Positions 7,526 to 33,748 of a DNA stretch of 64,000 nt are shown here, piece after piece; positions within the stretch are counted from its first letter, which is position 1; each line of letters opens with the position of its first letter. The DNA is from Opitutales bacterium. GTDB lineage: Bacteria; Verrucomicrobiota; Verrucomicrobiia; Opitutales; Coraliomargaritaceae. The notes beneath the pieces were generated by a model. That model saw only the letters and a list, made by a program, of their open reading frames with translations, searched no databases and had not been told where the DNA came from. Location of the stretch: NCBI GenBank assembly GCA_018607135.1, contig JABBCA010000047.1, positions 1 to 64,000 on the forward strand. The letters run 5' to 3'. Position numbers and translations under genes: made by a program.

Positions 7526-8797
7526 CTAGTTAACCTCGCCAATAAACTCTTGCTGCATCCAATAGTGAAGGCACTCGGGGATTTTCACACGACCGTCTGC
7601 TTGCAGGTTATTTTCAAGAATGGCAGCAAGCACACGTGGCACCGCAAGGCCCGAACCATTCAGAGTGTGAGCGGTTACAGGCTTACCACTCTCATCACGA
7701 TAGCGTATTCCCGCCCGACGTGCTTGGAAATCGGTAAAGTTACTGCAACTAGAAACCTCAAGCCAGCGCTTCTGCCCTGCTGCAAACACTTCAAGGTCAT
7801 ATTGTTTCGCATGCGGAAAACCAATGTCGCCCGTGCACATACGCAATACTCTATACGGCAGACCTAACTTTTGCAGCGTGGCTTCCACATTATCACGTAG
7901 TTTCTCGAGCTCTTCCATACTGGAACCCGCATCGGTCCACTTGACCAACTCGACCTTGTCGAACTGGTGCAAACGATTTAAACCACGCACATGCGCTCCC
8001 CAACTGCCTGCTTCACGACGAAAGCACGGAGTGTAGGCGCATCGATAGATCGGCATCTCATTCGAATCGAGAATCTCATCTCGATAAAAATTAGTCACAG
8101 GCACCTCTGCAGTCGGAATCAAGTAGAGACCTTCATTCTCGTCGACATACATTTGGCCTTCTTTGTCAGGCAGCTGCCCAGTCGCGGTTGCGCTCGCCGC
8201 ATTCACCACGATTGGAGGCAACACCTCTTCATAACCGTTCTGACGTGCCTCTTCTAAAAAGAAATTCACCAAGGCCCGCACCAAACGTGACATTTCACCT
8301 ACATAGAATGGGAAACCAGCGCCCGCAGTCTTCACACCACGAGCAAAATCGATACGAGATTCAAACCATGGAATATCAAAGTGCGGCAACGCATTTGGAA
8401 ACTCTGCATCCGCATCACCCCAAGTCGAAGCCACTAAATTCTCGTCTTCACCTTTGCCCACAGGAACCGATGGATCAGGTAAATTCGGAATCGAAAGAAA
8501 CGCCTCTTGAAAGGCCTCGTCTGCTTGTTTGGAAGCCACTTCGAGCTCCTTAGCTTGAGCGGAGATCGTTTTCATTTCTTGCACCTTAGCAATAAACTCA
8601 GGAGTGCCCTTTGGCAACGCCGCCATCTCCTTATTAGCCGCCTTCTGTGCAGCACGAGCTTGCTCTGCCTCAGTGATCTTCGAGCGACGCGTAGCATCGA
8701 GCTCCAAGACTGTATCAATGTCAGTTTTGAACTTTTTATTAGCAATTGCAGCTCGAACAAAGTCCGGCTGCTCACGAAGGAGTTTAATATCGATCAT
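7526..8797 (-). CDS. serS: Seryl-tRNA synthetase
   Basis: Class II synthetase charging tRNA-Ser and tRNA-Sec. The 423-residue protein begins MIDIKLLREQPDFVRAAI, the canonical SerRS start. It continues with an N-terminal coiled-coil tRNA-binding arm (about residues 30-105, rich in A, K, E and Q). The catalytic core follows, with motif 2 FRREAGSWGAHVRGLNRLHQF and motif 3 around LNGSGLAVPRVLAAILE. The start at 8797 removes an 11-residue leader that is outside family homology. Nothing unusual was seen. Confidence 0.97.
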   Translation of the reverse strand: MIDIKLLREQPDFVRAAIANKKFKTDIDTVLELDATRRSKITEAEQARAAQKAANKEMAALPKGTPEFIAKVQEMKTISAQAKELEVASKQADEAFQEAFLSIPNLPDPSVPVGKGEDENLVASTWGDADAEFPNALPHFDIPWFESRIDFARGVKTAGAGFPFYVGEMSRLVRALVNFFLEEARQNGYEEVLPPIVVNAASATATGQLPDKEGQMYVDENEGLYLIPTAEVPVTNFYRDEILDSNEMPIYRCAYTPCFRREAGSWGAHVRGLNRLHQFDKVELVKWTDAGSSMEELEKLRDNVEATLQKLGLPYRVLRMCTGDIGFPHAKQYDLEVFAAGQKRWLEVSSCSNFTDFQARRAGIRYRDESGKPVTAHTLNGSGLAVPRVLAAILENNLQADGRVKIPECLHYWMQQEFIGEVN

Positions 8798-8852
8798 TTG
8801 AACCCAAATGGAGAAGACAGAAGCAGGCAATCAGTCAAGCCATGAATGGTAG

Positions 8853-11800
8853 CTAACCTTCCATTAAATACTCTAGGTCACTGCGACTGAGCTTTGCGGA
8901 AGCCGACTTGCCACCGGGCTCTTCGACTAACTGACGGAAGAGTTCGGCCTTACGCGCTTTCAGCTCCAGCATGCGAGCTTCGATTGTGTGCTGCATGATT
9001 AAACGCTGCACAAAAACCGAACGTGTCTGGCCGATACGGTGGGCACGGTCGCTGGCTTGATTTTCGACCGCAGGGTTCCACCAAGGATCTAGATGAAAGA
9101 CATAGTTGGCTCGCGTTAAATTGAGGCCGACTCCACCGGTTTTAAGACTGATAAAGAAAAAGGCTGGGCCCTTTTCACTTTGAAAGCTCTGCACGAGTTC
9201 TTTTCTCTGTGATACTGGCGTGCTGCCATCCATACGTAGGTAAGGGATACTTCGCTCTTTGGCGATAGCTTCCATTTGATCGAGACCACCGATGAACTGA
9301 CTGAAGATCAAGGCTGCGTGCCCTTCGGCTTGAAGCTCCTCTAGCTTATCAGCCATGTAATTAAACTTTGGAGCAGGCTCCTCCATGGTCTTACCGAGCA
9401 ACTCTGGGCTTACACATACTTGTCTTAAGCGTAGAATCGCGGCAAGGGCCACGATGCCGGCTTGTTGCTCAGGACGGTCCTCATATGCGGCAGCGACCTC
9501 TTCACGGACCTCGGAAACAGTGCGTGTGTATATCTCCTTTTGCACCGGCGACATTTCCAAAAAGAGTTCATGCTCTTCCTTTTTAGGAAGCTCCTTAAGG
9601 ATCTTCTCTTTCGTGCGTCTCAAGACAAACGGTGTGGCTCGACGCAATGTCTTTTGCGGCTCCTTACGGTAGCGCTCCTTAAAATCCTTAAGTTGGCCGA
9701 AAATACCAGGCACGGTCGCAGTCAACACCGAGAAATACTCCGACACATTGTTTTCTACCGGAGTGCCAGTGAGGCAAAGCGTAAAGCGACGATTTAAACG
9801 TGATGCCGCCTTGGTGCGTGCTGTTGACACATTCTTTAAGTTATGGGCTTCATCAAAAACCAACACATCGAACTCATGCGCTGACATGGTCTTCGCCTCG
9901 ATTCGCACGCGGTCATAGGTGGTTAAAATAATTTGCGCTTGCTGCAAAGATTGCTGCCACGCTGAAGGTGACAAACAGTCCGTCACTTTCAAATGCGGCG
10001 CAAATCGAGCAAACTCGTCCAACCAGTTGAAGACCAAACTCGGCGGCACGACAATCAGAACGGATGCGAGTGACTCGCGTTTCGTTTCGGCCTGCTCAAA
10101 TCGATGGGTTAAGAATGCGATCGTCTGCACGGTCTTACCCAGACCCATATCATCCGCGAGACAGGCACCGAAGCGATGTTGATACATGAATTCGATCCAT
10201 GCACAGCCATCCCGCTGATAAGGGCGTAAATCAGCCTTCAATTGCTTCGATGGCACAAACCCTGGTAACTCGTTGAACTTACTTAAGCTCTGAAAGACCG
10301 CTTCGACCTCTTCTGGAAGTTCGACTTTCACGCCACGACGACGCAAGGATATCCAATCCAGCATTTCTAGACGAGAAATCTGCAGACCACCTGTTGGCGT
10401 TAAGCCACTCTCCCCACGACTGGGTCGGCCGCGCTGCAAAATTTCCGCAATCATTTGCAAGCCATCGGCTTCTCCATCACCGACTTCGGGCATGATCAAG
10501 CTACCATCTTCCGCCTCGAGAAAGAGTTGACCGCGAATTAAGCGTTTCCACTCGGCTTGTGTAATGGTTCGATCTCCGCAGGTAATCGATGGATGTAATT
10601 CGAACCAATCGATATCTTTGCCTGCGCCACCATGCTGTCCCTGTAGATTGATTGCCAGCGGAGCCGATCGAATCGCTTGATCATTGAAGCGCACGCGCAC
10701 TCCCAAGGCCGCACATACTGAAACAAGACGCTGCAACACGCCATCGTCATTATCGTGGCGCGAAAGTTGTAATCGTCCCTCACATAGCCCCTTTAGGTCA
10801 TCACGTGAAATCGAGTCATACATGCTGAACAGGAGCATGGCTACTTTGCCCAGGTGCATGGGGCATGCGAGCCATAACGCTTGCGATTCATCGATCACAA
10901 GCCGTGGATCATCGACACGGGTCGTGCCTATAAAGTTCAAGACTCGATCCACCACATGGCGAACGACTGTGCCATACTCTTCTCCCAACAATTCTGGAAA
11001 ATCCTCCGCAAGTTCATGTAGATCCACCGCCACCGACTGCTCATTTGCGGATAAAGCGCGCCGCAGCAGATCAGAGAGCGCGCGCACTCGACGTTTTGCA
11101 GAGAGCAAGGCGCCATAAGATCCGTCCAACACAGAGTCCAACAGCGATTCTTGATAACTCTGCAGATCCAACTTCAGAGAACCATGCGTCGCATATAAAT
11201 CGAATTCAAGCGCTTCGCGTTCACCAGCCGCATTTTCAACTGCGTGTAAATCCAATTCAATTTTCACCGACTTCGGATCTACTTTAGACACCTTGATCGG
11301 TTCACCATCCACGCAGTAGGAATAGACCTGCTTCTGTGCCACCATGGCTGGATAGGCTCGGCGATAGGCCGAGTCATTAAAGCTCTCGCCATCCGTAGAA
11401 AAGAGCACCCGCCCGCGATGCTCTGCGATTCCACTAGGGTCTTCCTTAATTGAACGCACCGAGCCATCTGATAAAATCACATAAGAGCTCTCAGGAATCA
11501 TGCAATAAGGCTCTAGAGGCTTACCCTTGGTATCCTGAAAGCAAATACGACGGCTGACCTCGTCGTCGGCATAGTCATAAACCACTTTCATTCGGCACGC
11601 CTGCTTACGCATCTCTAAGCGCTGTGACTCACCACTCACCCCTACCATGACAGGGATGTTTGCTTTCTTCGCCTCGGATAGAAAATTTGCGAAGTTCTTA
11701 TCTACTTCGCCTAAAGAAAACTCACGAGCCACCGAAAACCCATAGCTACTGGGCAAGCTCACTCCTACCGCACGTAAAAACTGTTGAGGCACATCCCCAC

Positions 11801-12401: not shown

Positions 12402-13364
12402 TTAGAGATTCAACAAAGGTAAGACCTTTGAGTTGAACGCTTCACACACCGTATTTAACTCAAGCGAAGCCATCACATGGTCGTCAGACCTAAGGGTAAA
12501 ATGGGCGTCGGCATCGATTGGATACGGCCCATAGGACTCAATCGGAGTGGGCCCAAACAATGCCAACACAGGGGTGCCCACTGCTGCCGCGATATGAATG
12601 GGGCCGCTGTCATTTGCTAACACTGCACCAGCTTTTTGAATCAATGCGATGGCATCCAATAAACTGGTTTTACCCGCCAGGTTATACACATTCGCTAATT
12701 GTGGGCATTGACTGGCAGATGCAGCCGAACCGCACCAAATAAACACCTGCTGCGGATGCGACTGCTCCATCGCTTGTAGAAAATCAGCAAAATAAGGCCA
12801 GTTCTTCTCTTCACGGCGGCTCTCTGGAAATACTAAGACTGACTTCGAGAGAGTCTCCGGCAATGAAACCGTTGGAACGGGCAGCCTAAAGCTGAGACCA
12901 TCCTTAACCTCTAGGGGCAGACCTATTGCTGGTAAAAATTGACTTAAAATCTCTACCGCATGCGGTTGTTCAGTGCTCGGCATCGGGACTTTGACATCGT
13001 AAAAGAAACCAGCACCCTCACGAGCGTCACTGCGTCCGATTTTACGATCCGAAATTGCGGCCTTAGTCATCAATCCACTGCGCGCCAGTCCTTGCATATC
13101 CAAGACGTAATCATACTTCCCAGACCGCTTAATCGCCTGCAGTAATCGCCAAAAGCTACCAAGCCCACCCTTACGTTTAAACACGATCACCTCGTCAACC
13201 GCGTCACAGGATTCAACTACCGGTGAAAATGCATCTGCCACAACCCAGGTCACATGTGTATTTGGTTGATGGATACGTATTGAGTTCACGACTTGTAAGC
13301 CATGAATAATATCTCCAAGCGACGACGGCTTGATAATCAGCAACTTTTGTAAATCAACACTCAT
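12402..13364 (-). CDS. waaC: Family 9 glycosyltransferase, heptosyltransferase I-like
   Basis: Transfers L-glycero-D-manno-heptose from ADP-heptose to the Kdo-lipid A inner core at the cytoplasmic face of the inner membrane. The 320-residue GT-B protein opens with LLIIKPSSLGDIIHGLQVV, the WaaC-style version of the GT9 motif. It also has LDMQGLARSGL near residue 108 (the conserved Asp-x-x-G-x-x-(K/R)-S site) and the C-terminal donor-binding block AVLANDSGPIHIAAAVGTPVLALFGPT. It overlaps the upstream kinase gene by 11 nt, so it is the last gene of a coupled three-gene operon. WaaC rather than WaaF is inferred from the N-terminal motif; acceptor specificity is not proven. Confidence 0.85.
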   Translation of the reverse strand: MSVDLQKLLIIKPSSLGDIIHGLQVVNSIRIHQPNTHVTWVVADAFSPVVESCDAVDEVIVFKRKGGLGSFWRLLQAIKRSGKYDYVLDMQGLARSGLMTKAAISDRKIGRSDAREGAGFFYDVKVPMPSTEQPHAVEILSQFLPAIGLPLEVKDGLSFRLPVPTVSLPETLSKSVLVFPESRREEKNWPYFADFLQAMEQSHPQQVFIWCGSAASASQCPQLANVYNLAGKTSLLDAIALIQKAGAVLANDSGPIHIAAAVGTPVLALFGPTPIESYGPYPIDADAHFTLRSDDHVMASLELNTVCEAFNSKVLPLLNL

Positions 13365-14805
13365 CGCGGCCAGCTAAAGTTAAAGCTTCTTTAAAGATTT
13401 GTTGAACGTCGGGCATCGACTCCCAATTCTTCATAAATCGTCGGTAGTCCTTTTCACGCCCTCGCTGAAACGCATTCTCACTCAATCCAAAGCGAAACGC
13501 GTCTAAATCGAATAAATAAACCACGCCCTCGGAATCGACAAGTAGATTGGTAGCTTTCAAATCACCGTGCGCAGCGCGCATACGCCCTAATGCACTCCAC
13601 ACCTGTGCAAAGGAAAACGCCACGGCTTGGATACGATCCAAGGAGTCGAGGCTAGATTCTACAAAATCGGGCAACAATTGACCTTCGAGTTGCTCCATTA
13701 ACAAGTAGCACTTTCCTTTTAACAAACCTCTACGCTCTTCGCAGTATGCAACTGGTCTCGACGTAGGGATAAACGCCATATCTAGTAGCCAAGCACTCGA
13801 CCAACTCGTCCGGGCCCTAGAGTCCGAAAAGACTTTCAGTAAGCGGCGAAACCAAGGCTTCAAGTTGTATCGCTTTAACACATACGAAACTCCACCATTC
13901 TCAAAGCCTTGCACCGTGCACGTATTTCCATCTTTGAGGCACTGCCCCTCGGACATAAATCTTTCTGGATTTGTAAAGAACGTATCCACCACTCCGTTAG
14001 CAGCTGACTTAGAATACATTCCCATCAATTTAGGAGAAGCCACTTTTTTAAACTCAGTGCAGTCGCGAATCGTTTTAGTGTAATAACGCCGAAGACGACC
14101 CGATTGCTGTTCGAGTATTACCGTATCTAATTTAGCCATGAGCGCTTTTCGACGCACGGGGTCATCGCTCATGTAGCATTGGCTTAATGACTTGCGGAAG
14201 GTTCGCTCAGCTGACGGAAGCAACGTCACACAAATCGAAGCGACATCCATCAAACGATCAAAATCGCTCAGGGGCGCATCACCGAGATCAAAGGTTCCTG
14301 CATCTAGAAGGAAAAGGTCTCCATTCGCGACCACCCAATTATTGACATGCTGATCCTTCTGTCGCGCGCCTACCGCATGCACTCGATCCACCAATACGGC
14401 CAGATCCGATGCGATCTGCTCAACACCTAAAGCATCCGCACGACGTAGATACGCTCCTAAAGTGATGGCACCGTGAATCCGCTTCATCACGACCCATACC
14501 GATTGATCGACCGAAGATTCGGCTACGCAGACAGGCTCAGCACAGGGTAAGCCCTTATGGCTTAATCCCAATAGACCGTTCCACTCCGCTCGCCAATCAC
14601 GTGTCTGCTTCGGGTGTGCCAAGAAGCGCTTCACCACCACAGCCTCCTTAGCAGGACTCAGTTTAGCGGCGTAAACCTCTCGGCGACCTGGTAAAATTCG
14701 CAATTCTGCGCCGATCACTAAATCAATGACTTTCTCATTAAAATGATCGACCGCTTGAACCACTTTTAACGCGCTTTGCTCAGAACCTGCTTCAAAGTCT
14801 TTCAC
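13354..14805 (-). CDS. Tandem two-domain LPS kinase-like protein (InaA/WaaP superfamily)
   Basis: A 483-residue protein made of two kinase-like domains in a row, probably phosphorylating LPS core sugars. Domain 1 (about residues 35-210) has a candidate lysine at V-V-V-K59, a catalytic-loop-like D151-x4-N156 without the preceding His-Arg, and D168 in LFLLDAGTFD. Domain 2 (about 290-470) has YVLKRYNLKPW with K311, H413-G-D415-L-K with N420, and D433 in YLFDLDAF. Both halves keep the main Asp/Asn residues. The start is a GTG whose bases overlap the stop of the upstream acyltransferase-heptosyltransferase fusion (GTGA), implying translational coupling. Its substrate is unknown; a role as a double core kinase is inferred from context. 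Confidence 0.8.
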   Translation of the reverse strand: MKDFEAGSEQSALKVVQAVDHFNEKVIDLVIGAELRILPGRREVYAAKLSPAKEAVVVKRFLAHPKQTRDWRAEWNGLLGLSHKGLPCAEPVCVAESSVDQSVWVVMKRIHGAITLGAYLRRADALGVEQIASDLAVLVDRVHAVGARQKDQHVNNWVVANGDLFLLDAGTFDLGDAPLSDFDRLMDVASICVTLLPSAERTFRKSLSQCYMSDDPVRRKALMAKLDTVILEQQSGRLRRYYTKTIRDCTEFKKVASPKLMGMYSKSAANGVVDTFFTNPERFMSEGQCLKDGNTCTVQGFENGGVSYVLKRYNLKPWFRRLLKVFSDSRARTSWSSAWLLDMAFIPTSRPVAYCEERRGLLKGKCYLLMEQLEGQLLPDFVESSLDSLDRIQAVAFSFAQVWSALGRMRAAHGDLKATNLLVDSEGVVYLFDLDAFRFGLSENAFQRGREKDYRRFMKNWESMPDVQQIFKEALTLAGRDEC

Positions 14806-16721
14806 TTCGCAGAGCTCCCTAAGTAGGATTGTATTGCGGCATAGGCAGACCCTGAAGACACGCCGTCAATCTCAGCGCCTCCGGTCTTCGGGCACCCTTC
14901 TGGCTGCAGAATTCTTGCAGGTGCCTCAAAGATAGGCCCAGTTCGCACTGGGTTTGTCGGACCGAAAATGGCAACGACTGGAGTGCCGAGCATATTCGCG
15001 AGGTGCATGCCACCAGTATCGTTACAACTGACTACCGCGCAACTATTTAGCCCGTCACAAAACTCCGACAAATCCGTTTTCCCGGCTAAATTGCGCACTC
15101 GCGCTTCTGGAAATCCTGCAGCCACTTGATCCGTAATCGCACGATCCGCAGGCGTGCCATAGAGATCGATTTCCACGTCATCGCTGGCATCCAAAAGCTT
15201 TTCGACCAATTCACGCCAATGCGCTATCGGCCAACGCTTTTCTGGCGCATTTTCGGTGCCACAGATGAGCCCCACGCGATTTGCATGCACTTTCGACGCT
15301 TTGGGTATTGGTGTAAAATCGAGATCTGCCTGAAGACCATAGTAACGAGCCATCTGTTCCCAGACATGCGTCTGATGCACTAAAGTCTCATCCAGCTCCT
15401 CACTCAATGGAAAGGGATTCGTCAGCAGCGGACGCCTTTTACCTGGCCGCAGCATCCCAAAGCGCTGACGACAACGAGTCAACACGGCCTCCAAATCGCT
15501 GCGTGATGAATTTGTGAATAGCAGATAGGTATCAGGATATTCAAAACGCCTGTCATAGAATGACTTAAAATACCCACGACCCCGTGCTGGAAGCGGAATG
15601 AAGGCATCGCCCACACCCAGTCGGTCGAAAAGCGGTTTGAAGGCAGACTTGCCTATCAATGTAATTTTGAAGTCAGGCCGTCCCGCCTGTATCGCCCGTA
15701 AAACGGGTAAGGCCATCACCACATCTCCCAACCAATTCGGCATACGCACCCATAAATTGGTTTTTCGAGGCGTCGACTCAGTTCCGAGTATACGACTTGA
15801 AAGCTCTAAACAATTGCGCTTTTCAGGTAAACGAAAGCGTTTGTGCGCAGAATAGAAGTGATCCCAGCGGTCATGCAGCCACAACCAATCAGCAGCGGCG
15901 CTTGCATCACGCTGCAGATACTGAGCCAAGGCATGATGCGCATGGATAGTAATCTCGGTAGGATCTTCCGCCTTAGGCAACTGAGTCAATGTGAGTTTGG
16001 CCTGCCAAAAATCGCGCCGCTCCGTAAGCATCAGAAACACATCGGCATTAAAGCGTTGAGCCATCAATGCCGGTAAGTCCGTCGCAGAGACCACTCGATC
16101 CATAAACGTAATCGTTGAACCTTTATTCGACGCATCTTGATCGAATAAAACAGTGACCATTTCACCGCGTCTCAGCGCTGCCATGGCATCATTATAGCCA
16201 TTTCGACGAGAAATCATTTTTGCGCCATAGCGCTCTCGCTCTGAAGTGACCCACGCATTGATCGAAGCTTGATTTAAAGGACGAAAGATCGCATGCACTG
16301 GCATAATACCTAAAGCCCTCGCAGGCAACATGGTTGCAGATTCTGCCATCGTCATGTGTGGCAGCATAATCACGACTGGGCGCCCATAACACTCGCCCCC
16401 TTCAGAGTAACGAGTGATCAACTCTTGAGTCTTTGGGCAAATTTCCAAGGTCGCCTCCATGCGTTTGGCACTGAAGAAGGCAGATGCGATCCGAAAGAGG
16501 CCCATTTCAAACAATCGAGCAGATGATTCTCTAAAGACTCCGCGCCGCCAGGCCTGTGAACGCGTCGGATATGCGTGATACAGGCTATTCATCGTCTTGT
16601 GCCTGCGCGAAGGCATTAAAGCTCCAACAAGCAAGCCCAAGCTATAACACACGCCACGACAGAGCGAGGGTGGTAGCGCAGCGAGTAGTCGCCCCAATAG
16701 TTTTAACAGAAATAGCAGCAC
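14802..16721 (-). CDS. Fusion of lipid A acyltransferase and heptosyltransferase II-like GT9
   Basis: A 639-residue bifunctional protein. Residues about 1-300 form an LpxL/HtrB-type lauroyl acyltransferase: an N-terminal hydrophobic helix and the catalytic H122-x4-E127 motif in LPHMTMAES. An IFRPLNQ block and the VLFDQDASNKG region follow, typical of these enzymes. Residues about 322-639 form a GT9 heptosyltransferase opening with LWVRMPNWLGDVVMALPVLRAI (WaaF-like). It contains VGLICGTENAPEKRWP and ends with VVSCNDTGGMHLANMLGTPVVAIFGPTNP. The first half would acylate lipid A and the second would add the second core heptose. It is the first gene of the operon. There is no frameshift or stop at the junction, so the fusion is real in this sequence. 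Confidence 0.9.
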   Translation of the reverse strand: MLLFLLKLLGRLLAALPPSLCRGVCYSLGLLVGALMPSRRHKTMNSLYHAYPTRSQAWRRGVFRESSARLFEMGLFRIASAFFSAKRMEATLEICPKTQELITRYSEGGECYGRPVVIMLPHMTMAESATMLPARALGIMPVHAIFRPLNQASINAWVTSERERYGAKMISRRNGYNDAMAALRRGEMVTVLFDQDASNKGSTITFMDRVVSATDLPALMAQRFNADVFLMLTERRDFWQAKLTLTQLPKAEDPTEITIHAHHALAQYLQRDASAAADWLWLHDRWDHFYSAHKRFRLPEKRNCLELSSRILGTESTPRKTNLWVRMPNWLGDVVMALPVLRAIQAGRPDFKITLIGKSAFKPLFDRLGVGDAFIPLPARGRGYFKSFYDRRFEYPDTYLLFTNSSRSDLEAVLTRCRQRFGMLRPGKRRPLLTNPFPLSEELDETLVHQTHVWEQMARYYGLQADLDFTPIPKASKVHANRVGLICGTENAPEKRWPIAHWRELVEKLLDASDDVEIDLYGTPADRAITDQVAAGFPEARVRNLAGKTDLSEFCDGLNSCAVVSCNDTGGMHLANMLGTPVVAIFGPTNPVRTGPIFEAPARILQPEGCPKTGGAEIDGVSSGSAYAAIQSYLGSSAK

Positions 16722-16875: not shown

Positions 16876-17703
16876 ATGCCAAAACCTTCGCTCAAAACAC
16901 TCATACAAAAAACCAATGCGCTGCGCCAGAGTTGGTCAGTCTTGGGCAGTGTAAATGTAGACCCATCACAGATATTTGAGCGCTCTGCGGTCTTTGAGCG
17001 GGAAATGATGGATAAGGGCCGCAGGTTGCCAGTGTATGTGAAGGTCTATACCTACAAAAAATCCACGCTACAACGACTCTGGCGACGCGGACGCAGCCAA
17101 AATGAAGCGAGGAATCTAGTGTTCTTCAATGAGATCGGTATACCTGCTGCACGCGTGATCGCGTGGGCGGAACGTCGTAACAAAATTGGTCGAATCGTAG
17201 AAGAATACATTATTACAGAAGCCATTGCCGATGCCGTCCCGTTAGAGGCGTTCATGCATGAGCATTGTCCCAATCGCGAGACTCCGTTGTTTCGTGAACG
17301 ACGAGATTGGATCCTTCGTGAGCTCGGCAAGTCTACGCGCAGCATTCACGATCACGGTTTCCTGCATCGCGATTTAAAATGGAGAAATATTCTCGGTCGG
17401 ATTCACAATGGTCAGGTTGAACTCTTTTGGATCGACTGCCCAATTGGCGATTTTAGTAAACTTCCTAAACAGCTTGAAAGGGGTCGTTTAAAAGACTGTG
17501 CGACACTCGACAAACTCGCTCGTAAACTGTGCAGCACAGAAGAGCGAAAACACTTTGTAGCGCATTACTTGAGTGCTGCCATAGACAGTCCAGCGGTTGA
17601 AGACCTCAGTAATGAAATCAATGCATTTCGCCGTATGCGATTCGACGCAAAAGATCGACAACAAGCCCTCGAAAAAGAAAGACGACGTGCAGAGCAAAAC
17701 TAA
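16876..17703 (+). CDS. LPS core kinase-like protein (InaA/Kdo kinase family)
   Basis: A 275-residue protein of the lipopolysaccharide kinase superfamily. It carries VYVKVYTYKKST near residues 53-64 (candidate nucleotide-binding lysine K55), a complete catalytic loop H164-R-D166-LKWR-N171, and a metal-binding D187 in LFWIDCPIG. The C-terminal tail is basic and helical (KDRQQALEKERRRAEQ). Such enzymes phosphorylate heptose or Kdo residues of the LPS core in the cytoplasm. It is the first of three adjacent kinase-like genes leading to a carbamoyltransferase. It is divergent from the acyltransferase-heptosyltransferase operon across a 154-nt gap that must hold both promoters. Confidence 0.82.
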   Translation: MPKPSLKTLIQKTNALRQSWSVLGSVNVDPSQIFERSAVFEREMMDKGRRLPVYVKVYTYKKSTLQRLWRRGRSQNEARNLVFFNEIGIPAARVIAWAERRNKIGRIVEEYIITEAIADAVPLEAFMHEHCPNRETPLFRERRDWILRELGKSTRSIHDHGFLHRDLKWRNILGRIHNGQVELFWIDCPIGDFSKLPKQLERGRLKDCATLDKLARKLCSTEERKHFVAHYLSAAIDSPAVEDLSNEINAFRRMRFDAKDRQQALEKERRRAEQN

Positions 17704-18355
17704 AGTAGAATTTGATAACTTAACCACAAATGCTGAACCATTGGAACAAGATCAGCATGGAGTGAAAGTATATCGCTTGCCCAATGAGAAGATATTAAAA
17801 CTATTTTGGCGTAGAAATAAAATCTCCTCTCAGATTTGGGCACCGCATGCACAGCGCTTTGCACGAAATGCTCTGATTCTAAAGAATCGACACATTCCAA
17901 CCATCGATGTGGAGTCGATTTTCAAGCTCCCCCACCTCAAGTGCGATGCAGTGCTCTATCATGAACTGCCAGGCACGACCTTGCGTAGTTGGCTGAGGGC
18001 ACATTCAGGTAATGACCAACAAGATAAAATCCAACAATTTGGCCAGTTTGTGAGCCGCCTACACGATAAAGGCATTCATTTCAGATCACTACACTTAGGA
18101 AACGTTTTAGTCACTCCAAACGGCTCATTTGCATTAATCGATATCGTCGACATGACCTTCCAACACTTTGGCAAATCAACGATTTCTAAACGATTGCGCA
18201 ATCTACGACACATCGCACGTTATAAAGAAGACAGGCAACTCATGGTTTCTGAGGGAGACAACGTCTTTATTGATAGCTACCTTGAAGCTTCACATCTGTC
18301 AGAGGCAGATAACAAACAACTCCGAAGTGTATACTTCCAACTGTTCCTTACTTAG
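17687..18355 (+). CDS. LPS kinase-like protein with Ser in place of catalytic Asp (WapP-like)
   Basis: A protein of about 222 residues, assuming the GTG at 17687 that overlaps the previous gene's end by 17 nt; the longer frame from 17597 would overlap it by 107 nt. The kinase-like core has KILKLFWRRN near residues 35-44, a catalytic-loop equivalent G-I-H131-F-R-S134-L-H-L-G-N139, and ALIDIVDMTF with D152. The usual HRD aspartate is Ser, while Asn and the metal Asp remain. From memory, Pseudomonas aeruginosa core kinases of the WapP/WapQ group share the FRSLHLGN version, so this may be a family trait rather than inactivation. Function is inferred as LPS core modification. Confidence 0.75.
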   Translation: MQSKTKVEFDNLTTNAEPLEQDQHGVKVYRLPNEKILKLFWRRNKISSQIWAPHAQRFARNALILKNRHIPTIDVESIFKLPHLKCDAVLYHELPGTTLRSWLRAHSGNDQQDKIQQFGQFVSRLHDKGIHFRSLHLGNVLVTPNGSFALIDIVDMTFQHFGKSTISKRLRNLRHIARYKEDRQLMVSEGDNVFIDSYLEASHLSEADNKQLRSVYFQLFLT

Positions 18356-18356
18356 C

Positions 18357-19145
18357 ATGTTTAAAATACAACAATTGTGGACCGCAGATGCGTGGAAATC
18401 ACAGCTTTCCAAAGCAGGCCTGCTAGACATTGATGCAGTCAGCCAACGTGACTTCGACTGGTTCGAAGAGCCTAATAAACGACGCGGTGGATGGAGCGGC
18501 GTCGCACGGATAGTCCTCAACCCCAAGGCCACCATAGAGCAGCAAAGCGTAGTTTTTCTAAAAATACAGCAAAACCACTTTTACAGAGAGCCCAGAAAAC
18601 TATTTAAAAAATGCCTAACCTTTGAACGTGAATTTGATGTTTTAGAAAATGTGGGCAAGGTCAGTAAGTGTGTCCCCGAAGTTGTCTTGTTTGCTAAATG
18701 GCAGAATGGCTCAGATGTCGGCTCAATTCTGATTACAAAAGCTCTCGATGAATGGTATCCATTAAGAGAATGGATTCTAGGTGACAACGGCCTCACTCCT
18801 CCCGATGAGCCCACTTTCCACCGAGCACTGGATGCCATCGCTCGATGTGGGCGTGAAATCAACACTGCTGGATGGGTCCATCTATGTTTCTCTGCAAAGC
18901 ATCTCTTTGTAAAACCAGAAGCAGACGGCAGTTTCAGTAGCTGCGTCATCGATTTTGAGAAATCTCGTAAACATCTGCGCTCCAATTATCGCACCATGAA
19001 AGATTGCTCTCACTTCATGAGGCACACGCCGAACCTAACGGACAGTCATAAACGTCACTTTTTAGAATCGTATTTTCAGACAAACGATTTCACTCCTGCA
19101 CAACGTAAACTGATTGGCAAAATGCGTGGCGCACCCGCCGTTTGA
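18357..19145 (+). CDS. InaA-family LPS kinase-like protein (WapQ-like)
   Basis: A 262-residue protein starting at MFKIQQLWTADAW, one base after the previous stop, so surely co-transcribed; a longer upstream reading would run through the preceding gene. The kinase-like core shows VVFLKIQQNHFYREP near residues 65-79 (candidate K69), EREFDVLENVG, a catalytic-loop equivalent G-W-V-H175-L-C-F-S-A-K-H, and CVIDFEKSRK with D199. The canonical HRD is not preserved but the InaA-type HxCxxxKH pattern is. Members include InaA and, from memory, a Pseudomonas core-kinase group. Phosphorylation activity has to be regarded as unproven. Confidence 0.75.
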   Translation: MFKIQQLWTADAWKSQLSKAGLLDIDAVSQRDFDWFEEPNKRRGGWSGVARIVLNPKATIEQQSVVFLKIQQNHFYREPRKLFKKCLTFEREFDVLENVGKVSKCVPEVVLFAKWQNGSDVGSILITKALDEWYPLREWILGDNGLTPPDEPTFHRALDAIARCGREINTAGWVHLCFSAKHLFVKPEADGSFSSCVIDFEKSRKHLRSNYRTMKDCSHFMRHTPNLTDSHKRHFLESYFQTNDFTPAQRKLIGKMRGAPAV

Positions 19146-22784: not shown

Positions 22785-23795
22785 ATGGACGACTCCATCA
22801 ACAAACATTTAATCATTCCATGTCATAGTGCAGGCATGGGAAGTATTTTAAATGGTGCAGTAGCCGGCCTACTCTATGCAGAAATAACTGGACGGACGCC
22901 GCTTATATATTGGAACGCTTATTGCAAGTATATGCCTACCGCGTATGAAACCCATCATAATGCATACACTGACTTTTTCCAAGAAACGTCAACCCACTCT
23001 ATCGAGTATCTCTTAACTAGGTCACAAAAAGTATTCCCCTCGAAAACCACAATTCTAAATATCGACAAAGTCATTCAAGCGTATCAAGGAAAATTCGCCG
23101 ACCTTTGTTCAACACATACAGATGACTTCGACGTGCTACTTTTCCCGCTCTATGTCTCGATTGAAGCAGTGGCTCAGCTTCTACCCGAAGAACATGCTCT
23201 GCATGGAGCCGACACCTCGTCGATTACACGCTGGATAGCCGAACTTTACATAGAAATTAGACCCGAAATCAAACAACAGGTAGACATTTTTTGGAATGAG
23301 CACTTCAAAAATGAATCGCATGTTGTTACCCTACATATACGTGAAGGTGACAAATACAGAGAAGCCGTGCTCCCTAACTACAACAAATATAAAGCCACAG
23401 CTGATGCCTACCTAAAGAAGCATCCAAATGCCAAGATTTTCCTCGCGAGTGATTCCGATACCGCAATCAACTATTTCCAGCAACGCTACGGCCCAAGGCT
23501 CATTACCTCGACCGCGACTCGCTCCTCCGGCCGCAAGGGCGTGCACCGCATGCGTAACGATGGCACAAAGATTGGCAATGAAATCGTGTTCGATGCCGAA
23601 TGCCTATCAAGAGGCACTCATTTCATAGGATTGGATGAATCTAACGTATTCCAGTGGGTCTGCCACATCACAAAACGCGGGCGAGAGCACCGGTTCACCG
23701 CTGAAAGCGTGCAGCATGGTATTTCAGATTTAATCTTTAATCGCCGTAACCTTAAAAAGTGCATTCAAGACACTTTGAAAGAAAAAATACGATGA
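22785..23795 (+). CDS. Putative GT23/NodZ-like fucosyltransferase
   Basis: A 336-residue protein with features of GDP-fucose-using NodZ/O-fucosyltransferase-type GT-B enzymes. The N-terminal HLIIPCHSAGMGSILNGAVAG is a glycine-rich loop. VVTLHIREGDKYREA near residues 184-198 is the HxRxGDK motif that contacts the donor. KIFLASDSDTAINYF near residue 225 is the conserved SDSD block. It precedes, with ATGA overlap, a GT10-type fucosyltransferase. GDP-fucose as donor is inferred from family and neighbour; no GDP-fucose synthesis genes are present in this window. Confidence 0.6.
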   Translation: MDDSINKHLIIPCHSAGMGSILNGAVAGLLYAEITGRTPLIYWNAYCKYMPTAYETHHNAYTDFFQETSTHSIEYLLTRSQKVFPSKTTILNIDKVIQAYQGKFADLCSTHTDDFDVLLFPLYVSIEAVAQLLPEEHALHGADTSSITRWIAELYIEIRPEIKQQVDIFWNEHFKNESHVVTLHIREGDKYREAVLPNYNKYKATADAYLKKHPNAKIFLASDSDTAINYFQQRYGPRLITSTATRSSGRKGVHRMRNDGTKIGNEIVFDAECLSRGTHFIGLDESNVFQWVCHITKRGREHRFTAESVQHGISDLIFNRRNLKKCIQDTLKEKIR

Positions 23796-27520: not shown

Positions 27521-27547
27521 CGGCTCAAAGTTTAAGACTTGAATTCG

Positions 27548-27566
27548 AACAACAACAACAACAATC
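27548..27566. repeat. CAA trinucleotide repeat between divergent genes
   Basis: About six consecutive CAA/AAC units lie in the 150-nt gap between the divergent GT2 and waaG genes. In one direction they read as poly-Asn, in the other as poly-Val, giving spurious extensions to both reading frames. A simple repeat in a promoter gap could vary in length, but only one copy number is seen here. Confidence 0.7.
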
Positions 27567-27670
27567 AACACGATCCAGCTACGTTAATGAGGCACTATAA
27601 TTCCAAATTTAGTGCCAACCATACCCGTTTTCACATTGCTGCAATTCCCACAATCCACTCTGATAGGAAT

Positions 27671-28798
27671 ATGAAGATCGGTTTCGTGCTTTACGACTAT
27701 TACCCTTTTGGCGGACTACAAGAAGACTGCTTAGCAACTGCTTTAGCCACTGAACGCCTGGGACATGAAATTCATATTTTTACGCGAACATGGAAAGGCG
27801 AACCTCCCGCAAGGGGCAAAGCTCATATCTTGGGTAAAACTGGTTGGAGCAATACCTCACGCAATCAAAACTTTTTTAAGCAACTAAGCGCCACTCTACC
27901 ACAGCATAACTTGGATGGCATTGTAGCTTTCAATCGTATCCCACAAGCAGATATTTATTTTGCCGCAGACCCATGCTTCCTTGAACGCAAGAAAGCGACC
28001 CTCTTTTGGCAAAAACTAGGTTCCCGTCACAGGTATTACGCTGCTCTGGAAGCATCCATTTTTAAGGCCGTTCCAGCACTTGAGACTCTAGTATTAACGG
28101 AACGTGAAATTGACGCTTTTACAAAGCACTACCCGATCAGTAAAGCGCATTTTCATTTACTACCTCCAGGAGTCAGTCGCGTCGAGCAGTCGGTCAGTAT
28201 GAAGCTTCGAAACCGTGCTAACTTAAGAAGCGAATTTGGCACCAGCGAGGCAACGACTGTTGCACTCTTCGTAGGTTCGGGATTCCGAATAAAGGGCTTA
28301 GATCGAGCACTGAAAGCAGTTCGTGCGAACCAGTCCTCTAACACTAAGTTTGAGTTTTGGATTGTAGGCAACGGTAACCCTACTCGTTTTAAAAAACTCG
28401 CTCAAAAGGCAGGAGTGCCCGTTCGCTTTATTGGCGGCAGAGCAGATGTCGCCTCTTTCTACGATGCTGCTGATTTCCTCCTGCATCCGGCTTACAGTGA
28501 GTCCGCGGGTAAGGTCCTACTAGAGGCAATAACACATGGCCTGCCCGTGCTCACTACGGATACTTGTGGCTATGAATACCATATACGAAACGCAAATGCG
28601 GGTCACGTGCTGCCAAGTCCATTTTCGCAAGATCAACTCAACGACGCCCTAAAACAATTCATCGAGGATACGAAGATACGAAAGCGTTGGAGTGCCGCGG
28701 CACTCGAATATGCCGCCAATCAAGACCTTTACAGCTGTCACGAATTTGCCGCAAAGCTTATCGAAGAGATACTGACTGAAAAAAGCATGAAGCACTAG
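27671..28798 (+). CDS. waaG: LPS core glucosyltransferase WaaG-like (GT4)
   Basis: Adds the first outer-core hexose, glucose in E. coli, to heptose II at the cytoplasmic face of the membrane. The 375-residue GT-B protein starts MKIGFVLYDYYPFGGLQEDC, matching the WaaG N-terminus recalled from E. coli (FPFGGLQRD). It also contains DGIVAFNRIPQADIYFAADPCF, LPPGVSR, and FVGSGFRIKGLDRAL. The donor block DFLLHPAYSESAGKVLLEAITHGLPVLTT has the conserved Glu residues. A GATAGG stretch 3 nt before the ATG may aid initiation. The longer frame adds a poly-Asn leader from a CAA repeat and is not preferred. It overlaps the end of the next gene by 4 nt, tail to tail. Confidence 0.9.
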   Translation: MKIGFVLYDYYPFGGLQEDCLATALATERLGHEIHIFTRTWKGEPPARGKAHILGKTGWSNTSRNQNFFKQLSATLPQHNLDGIVAFNRIPQADIYFAADPCFLERKKATLFWQKLGSRHRYYAALEASIFKAVPALETLVLTEREIDAFTKHYPISKAHFHLLPPGVSRVEQSVSMKLRNRANLRSEFGTSEATTVALFVGSGFRIKGLDRALKAVRANQSSNTKFEFWIVGNGNPTRFKKLAQKAGVPVRFIGGRADVASFYDAADFLLHPAYSESAGKVLLEAITHGLPVLTTDTCGYEYHIRNANAGHVLPSPFSQDQLNDALKQFIEDTKIRKRWSAAALEYAANQDLYSCHEFAAKLIEEILTEKSMKH

Positions 28799-31047
28799 CG
28801 TAGCTTGCGTATGACGCGTCGCTTGAAGCGTTTCAGATCCGTCTTTACTGCATAGAGTTTAAACGTTAAACGATACCTCATACTGAAACGCGCTCCAAGC
28901 CGACTCATGTATTTATCCATAAAATAGGCTTGTTGTTTTGGCTGTAATTTCAAAACAAGGCGTTTCAAATCCGAGACTCGATCCGGAACGCATACGCCCC
29001 AAGAAGTGCACCGTGCACGAGCAGTATCGATCAATGAAAATTTGAGTTCATTTCCAGCGCCTATTTCGACAAGAACATTCCCCCCCGACAAGTCTCGAAA
29101 AAATATCCCACGCCGATGCATGGTGATCGTAAATTCAATGAGCTCATCCACAAATGCCTCAAACGTGTATCCATGTAGTTGGCTTTCACCTTGAGCATAC
29201 GCCGACCAAAAATTGCGAACTGACAAGCCTCCACCCATAAACTCGCAGATGAACCAATTGTTCATCAGATCTGATGGATCTTTACTCTCAAAATAGGCAA
29301 CTGTCTTTGGCGTCTCGATACCACGGCGCATAATTTCTGCAGTGCCATTCCAACTTCTTAGGCCTTTGGATGGCTTATTACGGTCCAGTATACGTTTATG
29401 CCACGCCATGGTTGACGGCTTCTTTACCACTAATGATCTTTGCGGATCACGTGGATCAGACACCTTCCAAATCACATTTCGTGAATTACGTAAGGTCCCA
29501 ATATCCTCTTGTTGCTTAATCATATCTGGCTGGAGTGCATCCATTAAAAGTTCTGCATCACCACGCGAATTTGCCATCACCATACCACGCCAAGAATCGG
29601 TCTCGAAGTCATAATAGGCTTGTTCCTTTGCAGGACGGGCAGCAACGACTTGACCTGGCAATTGAATCGACTCCCGAGCGAGACTAATATCTTCGGTTTT
29701 TGTAATTACATAAATTGGCGAGCCTCTAAAGAAGTCAGGGATCTCAGCCATCACCTGACCATCTCGACCCACAACATGTTGAATCTGATGAAAATTCGAT
29801 TCATCGAAGCAATCTTTGAAACGCGCGACGCGACCGTTGCTTGTCCATGCAACATAAACGGATCTCCCATCTTTTGTAAACTGATGAATCTCAAGCTGAC
29901 GATTCACGCATGAAGCGCCCACGTAGTGGCTGTTACCTAATTGGCTAATTAGGGTTTTAAGTGCTTCAAATGCCGGTCTAGCTCGCCACTGAGACGACTC
30001 ACCTAGCAAACAATCATAAAAACTAACAATATCTCGACCGTCAGATAGCGAACGGTCATTTGTGCCATCATCAATGAGTCCTTCGCGATAACTAATCAGT
30101 GGCCCCCAATAATTTCGCTCAAATTGCATCGACGTCGCGGTAATCAATTGGTGGCGCACTAAGTAATCGGCCATTTTCTCCTCTGGATTACCCCAAATTC
30201 GGTTCAGACGAGGTAAGGTCCAAAAAGAGCAAGTCGACCAGTTGCGTTGCATACAATTACGTGATGCTATCGATGCGATGAGCCATATCTTTTTACGCAG
30301 ATTATAACTCAAAACAGCACGAAACATCCTCCCAAGTATCTTATGATCTAAGGCCTCGGGTTCACCTGCACGCTCTGCAAATAGATTGTTGGAATGCACA
30401 TCAGGCAACTGGTCGCGTTTCGCAAGCGTCGCTAGCAAACCTGCATTATATTGCGGCTCAAAATCGGTCACATTTGGCCCCACTAAAGTCAGCCCATGAT
30501 CTTTGACGATCGAATAGGCAATGTTCCATAATGCTTGAAATCCCCCTAGTGAATAACCACTCCATTTAGCACGATTGATCGTATTTCCAATTTCTACTGC
30601 TTCAATCTTCCCAGTATAATGATTAAGCGATTCCTTTACGAAAGTCCGCCATTGAAGACATGCTGACTCTTTGGGCATTTGCTCAGCATATTCCAACGAT
30701 TGGACTAAATGCAGTAAAACGCCGACTCCTTCAGCAACTAAGCCATCCACTAGCCAGTCGACCTTGACTCGATCACTCGTATCGGAGAAATCAACACCTG
30801 CACTTTTAATACCCAGTTCACGAATATATTCTAGGGCTTTTTGACAATCCTCTTGGCTTTTTGGCTCGGCTAGGCAAACACCAAAGAAGTCCTTCGACAG
30901 TGCGTGATTTTGTCTTCCTTCAGGAACTATCGAGGCCTTGTCATATTGAAACGGGCGTAGTCCTTTTAATGCTTCCCAGGAAAACTCGAGGTCACCAATC
31001 GATGGATTCTTGAAGTTAAAGAAACGAGTTTTACTAGTCTGAGACAT
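28795..31047 (-). CDS. Glycoside-hydrolase-like TIM barrel fused to an LPS kinase-like domain
   Basis: A 750-residue two-domain protein. Residues about 40-370 look like a clan GH-A glycosidase barrel. EYIRELGIKSAGVDFSDTSD near 73-92 is a barrel strand-helix and AVEIGNTINRAKWSGY near 150-165 sits where the acid/base Asn-Glu pair is expected. Here it reads N155-T156, so the acid Glu seems lost. Residues about 520-700 form a kinase-like domain with VVKKPS (K542/K543), FFRD652LSGGN657VL and SLID674TARARC. The C-terminus is very basic. The ATG at 31047 removes a poorly conserved leader. It could be a sugar-binding module directing a core kinase. It lies between waaG and waaP on the opposite strand. 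Confidence 0.72.
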   Translation of the reverse strand: MSQTSKTRFFNFKNPSIGDLEFSWEALKGLRPFQYDKASIVPEGRQNHALSKDFFGVCLAEPKSQEDCQKALEYIRELGIKSAGVDFSDTSDRVKVDWLVDGLVAEGVGVLLHLVQSLEYAEQMPKESACLQWRTFVKESLNHYTGKIEAVEIGNTINRAKWSGYSLGGFQALWNIAYSIVKDHGLTLVGPNVTDFEPQYNAGLLATLAKRDQLPDVHSNNLFAERAGEPEALDHKILGRMFRAVLSYNLRKKIWLIASIASRNCMQRNWSTCSFWTLPRLNRIWGNPEEKMADYLVRHQLITATSMQFERNYWGPLISYREGLIDDGTNDRSLSDGRDIVSFYDCLLGESSQWRARPAFEALKTLISQLGNSHYVGASCVNRQLEIHQFTKDGRSVYVAWTSNGRVARFKDCFDESNFHQIQHVVGRDGQVMAEIPDFFRGSPIYVITKTEDISLARESIQLPGQVVAARPAKEQAYYDFETDSWRGMVMANSRGDAELLMDALQPDMIKQQEDIGTLRNSRNVIWKVSDPRDPQRSLVVKKPSTMAWHKRILDRNKPSKGLRSWNGTAEIMRRGIETPKTVAYFESKDPSDLMNNWFICEFMGGGLSVRNFWSAYAQGESQLHGYTFEAFVDELIEFTITMHRRGIFFRDLSGGNVLVEIGAGNELKFSLIDTARARCTSWGVCVPDRVSDLKRLVLKLQPKQQAYFMDKYMSRLGARFSMRYRLTFKLYAVKTDLKRFKRRVIRKLR

Positions 31048-31217
31048 TAAAGATGCTGATGTAGGATTGTCGAAGCTGAGTGACACGAAGATCGGCACTT
31101 CAAAATAGATCAACAAAAAATACAGCCTTTACGCGGAACGATACAATTCAAGACTAGACTCTGACAAGCGCATTGACAAACCTGCACTCAGCGGATTCCA
31201 CCGTGCATAAAAAGTAT

Positions 31218-32060
31218 ATGTATCTCGACCTCTCAGACGAACTCAAGCGTGTCATCCCAGATGGATGTGACCCTTTCGTATGGCTACTCGAAGGTCATGG
31301 AGTGACGCATAGGCATGTCAAGAATCGCTTAACCTACGAACAAAGTCTGGGAGACCTACATTTCTTTGTTAAACGCCACCTAGGCTGTGGATGGAACGAA
31401 GTTTTTAAAGAGTGGTATCGATTTCGTAAACCAGTCGTCAGTGCTCGCACCGAATGGGAAGGCGCAGAGAGCTTGTGCAAGGCAGGCATTCGAGTGCCTA
31501 AAGTGTTGGGTAAAGGCGAGCGCGGCAGCTACCCCCACGCAATCGAATCATTCGTCGTGCTAGAAGCACTGGAAGATTGCGACACCTTAGAGCACTTCAA
31601 AGAGGGATGGCATGATTACACGGGAGTCAATTGGGTTCGCCTTAAGCGTGATCTCATCACTGAAGTGGCAACGATCTCGCGTAAGATGCACGCAAAGGGA
31701 ATCAACCATAGGGATTTTTACCTAAATCACTTTTTGCTGAATCGGAAGCACATCAAGAATTGGTCTCCTAGAACTGAAATCCAGCTTAACTTAATTGACT
31801 TGCACAGAGTCCAGCAGCGATCCTCGGTTCCTAGGCGCTGGCTGATAAAAGATTTAGGCTCATTGATTTTCTCAGCCTTAGATGTCGGTCTTACTTCGTC
31901 GGACGCAGCACGCTTTCTTAAAATATATCTCGGTCCCAACTGGAAACAATTGCTGTGTAACGATTTAAGCTTGTGGCAATCGATCATGAAACGAGCCGTT
32001 AAACTCTATGTTGGATTTCATGGAACACGCCCAAAACTGCCGAAGCTACTGACCACTTAG
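31218..32060 (+). CDS. waaP: Lipopolysaccharide core heptose(I) kinase WaaP
   Basis: Phosphorylates heptose I of the LPS inner core with ATP, which stabilises the outer membrane. The 280-residue protein aligns by eye along its whole length with E. coli RfaP. Matching blocks are DLHFFVKRHLGCGWNEVFKEW (Lys K52), KPVVSARTEWEGAESL, and the catalytic loop G-I-N-H164-R-D166-F-Y-L-N-H-F-L-L. LNLIDLHRVQ (D194) and VPRRWLIKDLGSLIFSA follow. The start at MYLDLSDELK fits the E. coli N-terminus; GTG at 31203 and TTG at 31173 are alternatives. The gmhB gene follows after 24 nt, suggesting one transcript. Confidence 0.92.
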   Translation: MYLDLSDELKRVIPDGCDPFVWLLEGHGVTHRHVKNRLTYEQSLGDLHFFVKRHLGCGWNEVFKEWYRFRKPVVSARTEWEGAESLCKAGIRVPKVLGKGERGSYPHAIESFVVLEALEDCDTLEHFKEGWHDYTGVNWVRLKRDLITEVATISRKMHAKGINHRDFYLNHFLLNRKHIKNWSPRTEIQLNLIDLHRVQQRSSVPRRWLIKDLGSLIFSALDVGLTSSDAARFLKIYLGPNWKQLLCNDLSLWQSIMKRAVKLYVGFHGTRPKLPKLLTT

Positions 32061-32084: not shown

Positions 32085-32669
32085 ATGATGCAAAACGTTT
32101 GGCTCAATCCACACTACGCTCATACTGAGCCAAAGACTGCAATTTTTGCAGATCGAGACGGAACTTTGATACGGCACGTCGATTACATTGACGACCCAGA
32201 TCAAGTAAAATTGCTACCTGGCGTCAAAGAAACCGTCCACAAACTGCTACAGCGCAAACTCCCCTTTTATATTCTCACCAATCAATCAGGAGTTGGCCGC
32301 GGATACTTTTCCATAGAGAGGGTCTATGAATGCCAACAACGTTTTTTTGAACTACTCGAAATAGACCCTACAGCAATCGCAGGTTGGTGTATTGCTCCTG
32401 AGGCTCCCGATGCCACGGGTGGCTACCGCAAGCCCTCCCCCCGTTTTATTGATGAAGCCTGTGAGCTTCTTGGGATCGCTGCTAAACAGACCCACATGAT
32501 TGGAGACACGTTGGTCGACCTAGAAACCGCATGGGCTACAGGCGCAAAGGCATGGGCTGTCGAGTGCGGCAAACCGCAACTACCACGGATGATCAGAAAC
32601 AACGAACTCTCACGGGAACATCACTTGATGCCCGACTTCTCAAGCTGTATACACGCAATTATAGACTAG
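32085..32669 (+). CDS. gmhB: D-glycero-manno-heptose 1,7-bisphosphate 7-phosphatase
   Basis: HAD-superfamily phosphatase removing the 7-phosphate before nucleotidyl transfer in ADP-heptose synthesis. The 194-residue protein has FADRDGTLIRHVDYIDDPDQV (catalytic DxD near residues 23-25), YILTNQSGVGRGYF (motif II), GGYRKPSPRF (motif III Lys), and HMIGDTLVDLETA (motif IV Asp pair). The length and the order of blocks match GmhB. It stands between waaP and hldD, its pathway neighbours. A histidinol-phosphatase role of the same family is less likely in this context. Confidence 0.9.
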   Translation: MMQNVWLNPHYAHTEPKTAIFADRDGTLIRHVDYIDDPDQVKLLPGVKETVHKLLQRKLPFYILTNQSGVGRGYFSIERVYECQQRFFELLEIDPTAIAGWCIAPEAPDATGGYRKPSPRFIDEACELLGIAAKQTHMIGDTLVDLETAWATGAKAWAVECGKPQLPRMIRNNELSREHHLMPDFSSCIHAIID

Positions 32670-32737: not shown

Positions 32738-33748
32738 ATGAGCACAGGCAAATACACACTCGTCACCGGCGGCGCAGGCTTTATCGGCAGCGCTTTAGTC
32801 CACGCACTCAACCAATCGGGTCACACAGATATCGTCATCTCCGACGTCCTTGGGACCGATGAGAAGTTTAAAAACCTAGTGCCTCTGCGCTACGCGGATT
32901 ATTTAGAGGCCGACGACCTACTAGAGCTCGCGATCGAAGAGCCTGAGTATTTCGAACAGTTCGACACGATCTACCACTTAGGAGCCTGCTCTGCGACCAC
33001 CGAAAAAGACGCTAGCTACCTAATCCGCAACAACTACGAATACACCAAAACACTCGCATCCATCGCGATTGAGAACGGCATTCGATTTGTCTATGCATCC
33101 AGTGCCGCTACTTACGGTGACGGCAGCCAAGGTATGGATGATACCATCGAAGACTTACATAGCCTCAGCCCGCTCAACATGTATGGCTACTCCAAGCACA
33201 TGTTCGACCTTTATGCACAGCGTATGGGCTGGCTCGACAAGATTGTAGGGCTTAAATACTACAACGTTTATGGCCCAAATGAAGGGCACAAAGGAGACAT
33301 GCGTAGCCTAGTAAATAAGGCATATGAACAAGTGCAAGAAACGGGTGAGATTGGACTCTTCAAGAGCTACCACCCAGACTACACCGACGGCAACCAGATG
33401 CGGGACTTCCTCTACGTGAAAGATGCAGTCGCAATGTCGATCCACCTCGCAAACACACCAACTGCCAACGGCCTTTTCAACCTCGGAACTGGCGAAGCCA
33501 ATACTTGGAATACTCTAGCAGAAGCCATCTTCGCTGCCCTAGATTTAGAGCCAAACATTAACTATATCGAGATGCCAGAACAGCTGAAAGGCAAATATCA
33601 GTATTACACCTGTGCCAACACTGATAAACTGAAAGCTACTGGCTACGACACTTCGGCAGGATACAGCCTAAAAGACGCAGTTAAAGACTACGTCTGCAAC
33701 TACATGGTGCCAGGAAAGTTCTTAGGACAAGAGAGTTTAGAGGGATGA
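32738..33748 (+). CDS. hldD: ADP-L-glycero-D-manno-heptose 6-epimerase
   Basis: Converts ADP-D,D-heptose to ADP-L,D-heptose, the donor used by the heptosyltransferases. The 336-residue short-chain dehydrogenase-like enzyme has the NADP-binding GGAGFIGSALVHAL at residues 11-24 and the family-specific DVLGTDEKFKNL. It also has a YASSAATYGDGSQG block, the catalytic Y-x3-K in MYGYSKHMFDLY, and KYYNVYGPNEGHKGDM. Also called rfaD/gmhD. Its end is followed by a 357-nt gap before rfaE2 that carries a decayed gene fragment. Confidence 0.95.
   Translation: MSTGKYTLVTGGAGFIGSALVHALNQSGHTDIVISDVLGTDEKFKNLVPLRYADYLEADDLLELAIEEPEYFEQFDTIYHLGACSATTEKDASYLIRNNYEYTKTLASIAIENGIRFVYASSAATYGDGSQGMDDTIEDLHSLSPLNMYGYSKHMFDLYAQRMGWLDKIVGLKYYNVYGPNEGHKGDMRSLVNKAYEQVQETGEIGLFKSYHPDYTDGNQMRDFLYVKDAVAMSIHLANTPTANGLFNLGTGEANTWNTLAEAIFAALDLEPNINYIEMPEQLKGKYQYYTCANTDKLKATGYDTSAGYSLKDAVKDYVCNYMVPGKFLGQESLEG

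Follow-up and report, generated by a model that had tools for sequence, protein, structure and literature searches.

A single gene in the window (the whole 64,000-nucleotide stretch of DNA analyzed here) encodes a 750-aa protein in which a degenerate glycosidase-type barrel is joined to a kinase of the Kdo/WaaP superfamily. With slightly more confidence than an even chance would warrant, we interpret this protein as a lipopolysaccharide (LPS)-glycan kinase whose pseudo-glycosidase module binds the acceptor glycan. According to this model, a cytoplasmic kinase would phosphorylate a sugar at the inner leaflet of the inner membrane, either in the growing LPS core or in some other lipid-linked glycan of the envelope. 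The GH39-clan barrel would be a pseudo-glycosidase that has lost both the acid/base and the nucleophile and has kept a constrained pocket; most likely it would bind the acceptor in a lectin-like manner and present it to the kinase, while the basic tail at the C terminus may keep the protein at the membrane. We infer the kinase substrate, the glycan binding, the membrane contact, and the cellular location. No description of a fusion between a kinase and a glycosidase barrel was found in the open-access literature searched.

The open reading frame is intact, running on the minus strand from an ATG at 31047 to a stop codon at 28795-28797 with no internal stops, and its own genome carries a single copy of the fusion gene (Table 1). 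The original prediction of a barrel followed by a C-terminal kinase in one 750-residue chain is borne out by this frame, by a Pfam kinase match above the gathering score, and by profiles of the relatives that reach GH39-type enzymes. No segment of the protein appeared hydrophobic enough to span a membrane, and its amphipathic C-terminal tail is a possible membrane contact; because of these two features, a cytoplasmic protein that touches the membrane would fit. Recent transfer of the gene is not strongly indicated, since its GC content (0.45) is near the values of the adjoining glycosyltransferase and kinase genes.

Table 1. Coordinates of the fusion gene, its domains and key residues, and its neighbors in the window
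Feature	Positions	Strand	Basis or remark
GT4 glycosyltransferase, convergent neighbor	27539..28798	+	PF00534
Whole ORF: barrel, beta domain, and Kdo/WaaP-type kinase	28795..31047	-	ORF and translation
Residues 53-365, predicted (beta/alpha)8 barrel of the GH39/clan GH-A group, degenerate at the catalytic positions	29953..30891	-	Profile matches and partial model
N155-T156 at the Asn-Glu acid/base motif, with Thr in place of Glu	30580..30585	-	Homologue alignment
D195-F196-E197, family-specific D-F-E motif, end of beta5	30457..30465	-	No variation at D195 or E197 in 29/29 core barrels
C273, site of the lost nucleophile Glu (Glu276 in PslG)	30229..30231	-	Alignment to PslG
Residues 366-450, small beta domain behind the barrel	29698..29952	-	GH39 enzymes (5jvk) have the same
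Residues 515-705, Kdo/WaaP-type kinase domain	28933..29505	-	PF06293 and 6dfl matches
K542, ATP-binding lysine	29422..29424	-	Alignment with RfaP; equals WaaP K51
R651-D652 ... N657, catalytic loop FRDLSGGN	29077..29097	-	HRD His is Phe650
D674, Mg-binding Asp (DFG position)	29026..29028	-	Alignment with RfaP
Residues 716-750, basic amphipathic tail	28798..28902	-	Net charge +13 over 35 residues
Heptose(I) kinase RfaP-like, divergent neighbor	31173..32060	+	NCBIfam RfaP, 1.4e-70, above cutoff
gmhB-like heptose gene	32085..32669	+	Named by reading the sequence
rfaD-like heptose gene	32738..33748	+	Named by reading the sequence

The Pfam Kdo/WaaP family (PF06293) matches residues 567-700 of the protein with an E value of 1.8e-5 and a score of 24.8 bits, which passes the gathering cutoff of 21.3 bits; close relatives score between 16.8 and 31.6 bits. 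When a profile of 11 relatives was compared with the PDB, the top sequence match was WaaP/RfaP (6dfl; 1.9e-6), and the same structure ranked first in a Foldseek search with the full model. The catalytic Lys, the HRD Asp, and the DFG-position Asp are present as K542, D652, and D674 and align with WaaP K51, D163, and D188, respectively, each of which is essential in Pseudomonas aeruginosa (PMC6147952). Together with R651, these residues are invariant in an alignment with the RfaP-like protein of the window and E. coli RfaP. The Lys, Asp652, Asn657, and Asp674 that the original prediction listed as kept are indeed found at those positions, and all four are invariant across 11 relatives.

The kinase nonetheless differs from WaaP itself. 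Against the RfaP/WaaP equivalog model (NF011703), the window protein scored 16.3 bits, far under the curated cutoff of 170 bits. The loop that reads DCYICH in WaaP reads DLSGGN in the window protein, and neither Y165 nor H168, with which WaaP binds its substrate, is retained. Because these residues are absent and the HRD His is replaced by Phe650, the alignments identify a WaaP-like kinase rather than WaaP, and replacement of Y165 and H168 implies that its substrate would not simply be that of WaaP.

No Pfam glycosidase family matches the window protein itself; a Pfam scan of 18 barrels from proteins of the opposite, kinase-barrel order likewise returned no GH family. For the barrel, a profile of 11 relatives with the window architecture had the GH39 enzyme PslG as its top PDB match, at a weak E value of 0.019 over two collinear stretches, and aligned STE276WGW of PslG onto STC273SFW of the window protein. 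A kinase-barrel profile matched GH39-like enzymes in which the WNE and TE motifs are intact (G079, 1.8e-13; G180, 3.6e-11), and a full-length hhalign comparison of the barrel with active-looking GH39-like enzymes agreed over 359 columns, the hhalign E values to these enzymes being single-template figures that are not database-calibrated. Two of the GH39-like enzymes found by the kinase-barrel profile match Pfam GH39, one of them above the cutoff. The barrels of the two domain orders are homologous to each other (hhalign, 8.6e-42), and 16 of their positions are invariant across both branches despite identities of 22 to 28%.

Structure prediction, proposed earlier as a check on the TIM barrel, gave an answer for part of the fold. 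AlphaFold runs for the whole protein and for the isolated barrel, based on a four-sequence alignment, returned partial models with a pLDDT of 56 to 58. In the low-confidence barrel model (mean pLDDT, 58), beta1 to beta5 are confident and agree with clan GH-A, whereas beta6 to beta8 have a pLDDT of about 30. Compared with known structures, the beta1-beta5 portion matched clan GH-A glycosidases best, GH39 members included (Z, 12 to 14.5 over about 175 residues). Taken with the profile comparisons, this partial model places the barrel in the GH39/clan GH-A group.

At the acid/base position, the Glu of the NEP/NE motif after beta4, the original prediction had read N155-T156, and this substitution proved to be fixed: the residue is Thr in 15/15 window-type homologues and Ala in 50 of the 57 kinase-barrel proteins, Glu occurs in none of those 57, and Glu is absent from this position in all of about 70 homologues. 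A second loss, that of the nucleophile at Cys273, had been missed. This position, after beta7, is occupied by C, S, N, H, or Y in the 15 window-type proteins and by Glu in none, whereas 53 of the 57 kinase-barrel proteins, all but four degenerate lineages, keep the nucleophile Glu, as do 18/18 kinase-barrel relatives in a smaller set. The homologue alignments thus show the loss of both canonical GH-A carboxylates in the window type.

Around these positions, N158, R159, W162, D195, E197, R226, P230, E231, K253, W276, and R298 are invariant in all 29 core barrels, and N158, R159, D195, E197, R226, and E231 are invariant in the same 15 window-type proteins. We rejected simple random decay of the barrel because the Thr is fixed and the pocket does not vary. 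Because the acid and the nucleophile are replaced while the surrounding residues are invariant, we conclude from the alignments that the canonical hydrolase machinery is gone and that the pocket is still constrained. An active hydrolase had been thought recognizable by two properly placed catalytic Glu residues elsewhere in the barrel; the canonical pair is absent, yet the core families never vary at D195, E197, or E231, so a relocated active site is conceivable. The original prediction of a sugar-binding pseudo-hydrolase that positions a glycan is supported in its pseudo-hydrolase part by the replacement of both carboxylates and by acid loss in every homologue found. Glycan binding and presentation are suggested by the retention of the pocket residues, the pairing of the domains in two orders, and the LPS gene neighborhoods.

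We searched 388 Verrucomicrobiota genomes with proteins and with profiles. The protein search gave a match in 55 genomes, and the profile search gave a match in 76, a number in which weak matches to ordinary glycosidases are counted. Two domain orders occur in the phylum, barrel-kinase as in the window and the commoner kinase-barrel; 15 homologues of the former and 57 of the latter were fetched for the residue counts given above. The window type was not found in the same-genus or same-family genomes searched. An all-genome scan with exact peptides detected three relatives, in Verrucomicrobiota only, no relatives were found in viral contigs, and a tblastn search of plasmids with a kinase-barrel protein detected the kinase part alone, in Bacteroidota.

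Kinases of both orders, one long-branch kinase included, form one clade (97/93) that excludes the remaining Kdo kinases of Verrucomicrobiota, and the barrel tree contains the same two sister groups. Since both domains show the same split, the trees indicate that the barrel-kinase pairing is old. The two parts also occur as separate genes: kinase and barrel are neighbors in G269, the barrel of G356 is likewise encoded on its own, by an ORF that matches the one in G269 in length and motifs, and in L056 the kinase (7239-8243, +) and the barrel (8236-9390, +) are overlapping adjacent genes beside an MsbA-like gene. Because long outgroup branches root the barrel tree, the order of events is one that we infer; the simplest history would be an old pairing with ancestral loss of the acid, followed by nucleophile loss and a swap of domain order on the branch of the window protein. 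In L070 (3534-5639, -), both domains look degenerate: the kinase reads HGN instead of HRD, and the barrel is devoid of catalytic residues. The D-F-E motif is lost in both L069 and L070, and L071 and L072 consist of a barrel only, with degenerate motifs.

The gene had been described as lying between waaG and waaP on the other strand. It is flanked by a convergent GT4 gene and a divergent RfaP-like gene, whose product is 37% identical to E. coli RfaP; the name waaG is tentative, because the GT4 neighbor falls under the cutoff of every NCBIfam glycosyltransferase model listed. Further heptose-pathway genes, as judged by reading the sequence, follow the gmhB- and rfaD-like genes. The search of other genomes, proposed earlier as a check, found homologues across Verrucomicrobiota. 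In another member of the phylum (L003) the fusion homologue adjoins gmhB-, rfaD-, and hldE-like genes in a syntenic arrangement; no obvious LPS gene is near the homologue at several loci (L002, L045, and L053). For selected neighbors of homologues, the best NCBIfam matches were MsbA (two loci), ArnT (two loci), LpxL, an ArnC-like GT2, a MOP flippase, and GT4 enzymes; these matches are below the strict equivalog cutoffs, and the neighbors were picked by eye without a background rate.

Besides the RfaP-like gene, the window holds more Kdo/WaaP-family kinases (13357-14805, -; 16876-17700, +; 18168-19142, +), and a 483-aa protein of this family apparently has two tandem kinase domains. A 639-aa ORF (14805-16721, -) joins a lipid A acyltransferase (PF03279) to a heptosyltransferase domain (PF01075), and a relative of NodZ-like fucosyltransferases in the same locus (22785-23795, +) scores 27.7 bits against a Pfam cutoff of 28.3 bits. 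Elsewhere in Verrucomicrobiota, Kdo-family kinases are fused behind a GT4 domain (L082, 1372-3408; L098, 259-2175; L101, 1273-3561), and because such fusions also occur, the joining of a kinase to another glycan protein is recurrent in the phylum.

The invariant pocket could instead mean that the barrel has remained enzymatic and, through a site rebuilt from D195-x-E197 at beta5, E231, and the Arg residues, acts on the glycan of the kinase as a hydrolase, transglycosidase, or epimerase. The invariance of D195, E197, R226, P230, E231, K253, W276, and R298 in 29/29 core barrels is consistent with this idea, as is the nucleophile Glu of the kinase-barrel relatives; because 53 of the 57 keep it, their branch at least may be catalytically active, either using a different acid or acting on leaving groups that require none. 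We nevertheless consider a rebuilt enzyme unlikely for the window type, which has neither canonical carboxylate, whose classical nucleophile site varies freely, and whose related lineages L069 and L070 have lost the D-F-E motif too. It is conceivable, if doubtful at best, that the active site was remade in two steps, the common ancestor losing the acid and the branch of the window losing the nucleophile and swapping the domain order, within an undescribed and widespread verrucomicrobial family that links LPS phosphorylation with a glycosidase fold and whose nucleophile-only branch might be an acid-free transglycosidase on phosphate-activated sugars. That the barrel is a decaying relic without a function of its own seems to us very improbable: the far-degenerate L070, with motifs lost in both domains, and the barrel-only L071 and L072 are what such decay might look like, but 16 barrel positions have stayed invariant across both branches at 22 to 28% identity, and the 15 window-type homologues keep the same pocket residues.

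The target of the kinase may also lie outside LPS, in a protein or a small cytoplasmic sugar, in which case the barrel would be a sugar-sensing regulator. The loop FRDLSGGN resembles ordinary protein kinases more closely than the WaaP loop DCYICH does, the kinase clade is distinct from the RfaP orthologues, and the same genome carries an RfaP-like gene directly alongside. LPS kinases are, however, the closest families by both sequence and fold, and the gene sits in an LPS locus with other Kdo-family kinases, which makes this alternative quite improbable in our judgment and leaves an LPS-glycan kinase with an acceptor-binding pseudo-glycosidase as our preferred explanation.

In those bacteria in which they have been studied, LPS kinases determine outer-membrane stability, while their choice of sugar is poorly known and the LPS of Verrucomicrobiota has been little studied. 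If our interpretation is true, a repurposed glycosidase serving as the substrate-binding part would be a direct way to guide LPS kinases. Such a kinase, occurring in two domain orders, offers a defined domain pair for testing, and the relatives form a clean natural series of stepwise loss of catalytic residues in a glycosidase.

Among known systems, WaaP/RfaP and the PF06293 family share the kinase fold and motif set with the window protein, including the three aligned catalytic residues. The window kinase, however, fails the RfaP model, belongs to a clade separate from the RfaP-like genes, has Phe in place of the HRD His, has no counterpart of Y165 or H168, and carries a barrel. Klotho-type pseudo-glycosidases have a clan GH-A fold without catalytic residues and bind partners. 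Klotho is among the fold matches of the barrel model; proteins of this type are eukaryotic receptors with no kinase and an independent loss of the catalytic residues. The GT4-kinase fusions of other Verrucomicrobiota likewise combine a Kdo-family kinase with an envelope-glycan enzyme, but theirs is a glycosyltransferase, whereas the window protein carries a degenerate glycosidase. The best PDB sequence relative of the barrel, PslG, is the GH39 endoglycosidase of Pseudomonas Psl biosynthesis and, like the window barrel, represents a glycosidase fold in a polysaccharide synthesis locus; the role of PslG is intracellular. PslG is active through Glu165 (acid/base) and Glu276 (nucleophile) (PMC11912335), whereas the window barrel has both catalytic Glu positions replaced and a kinase attached.
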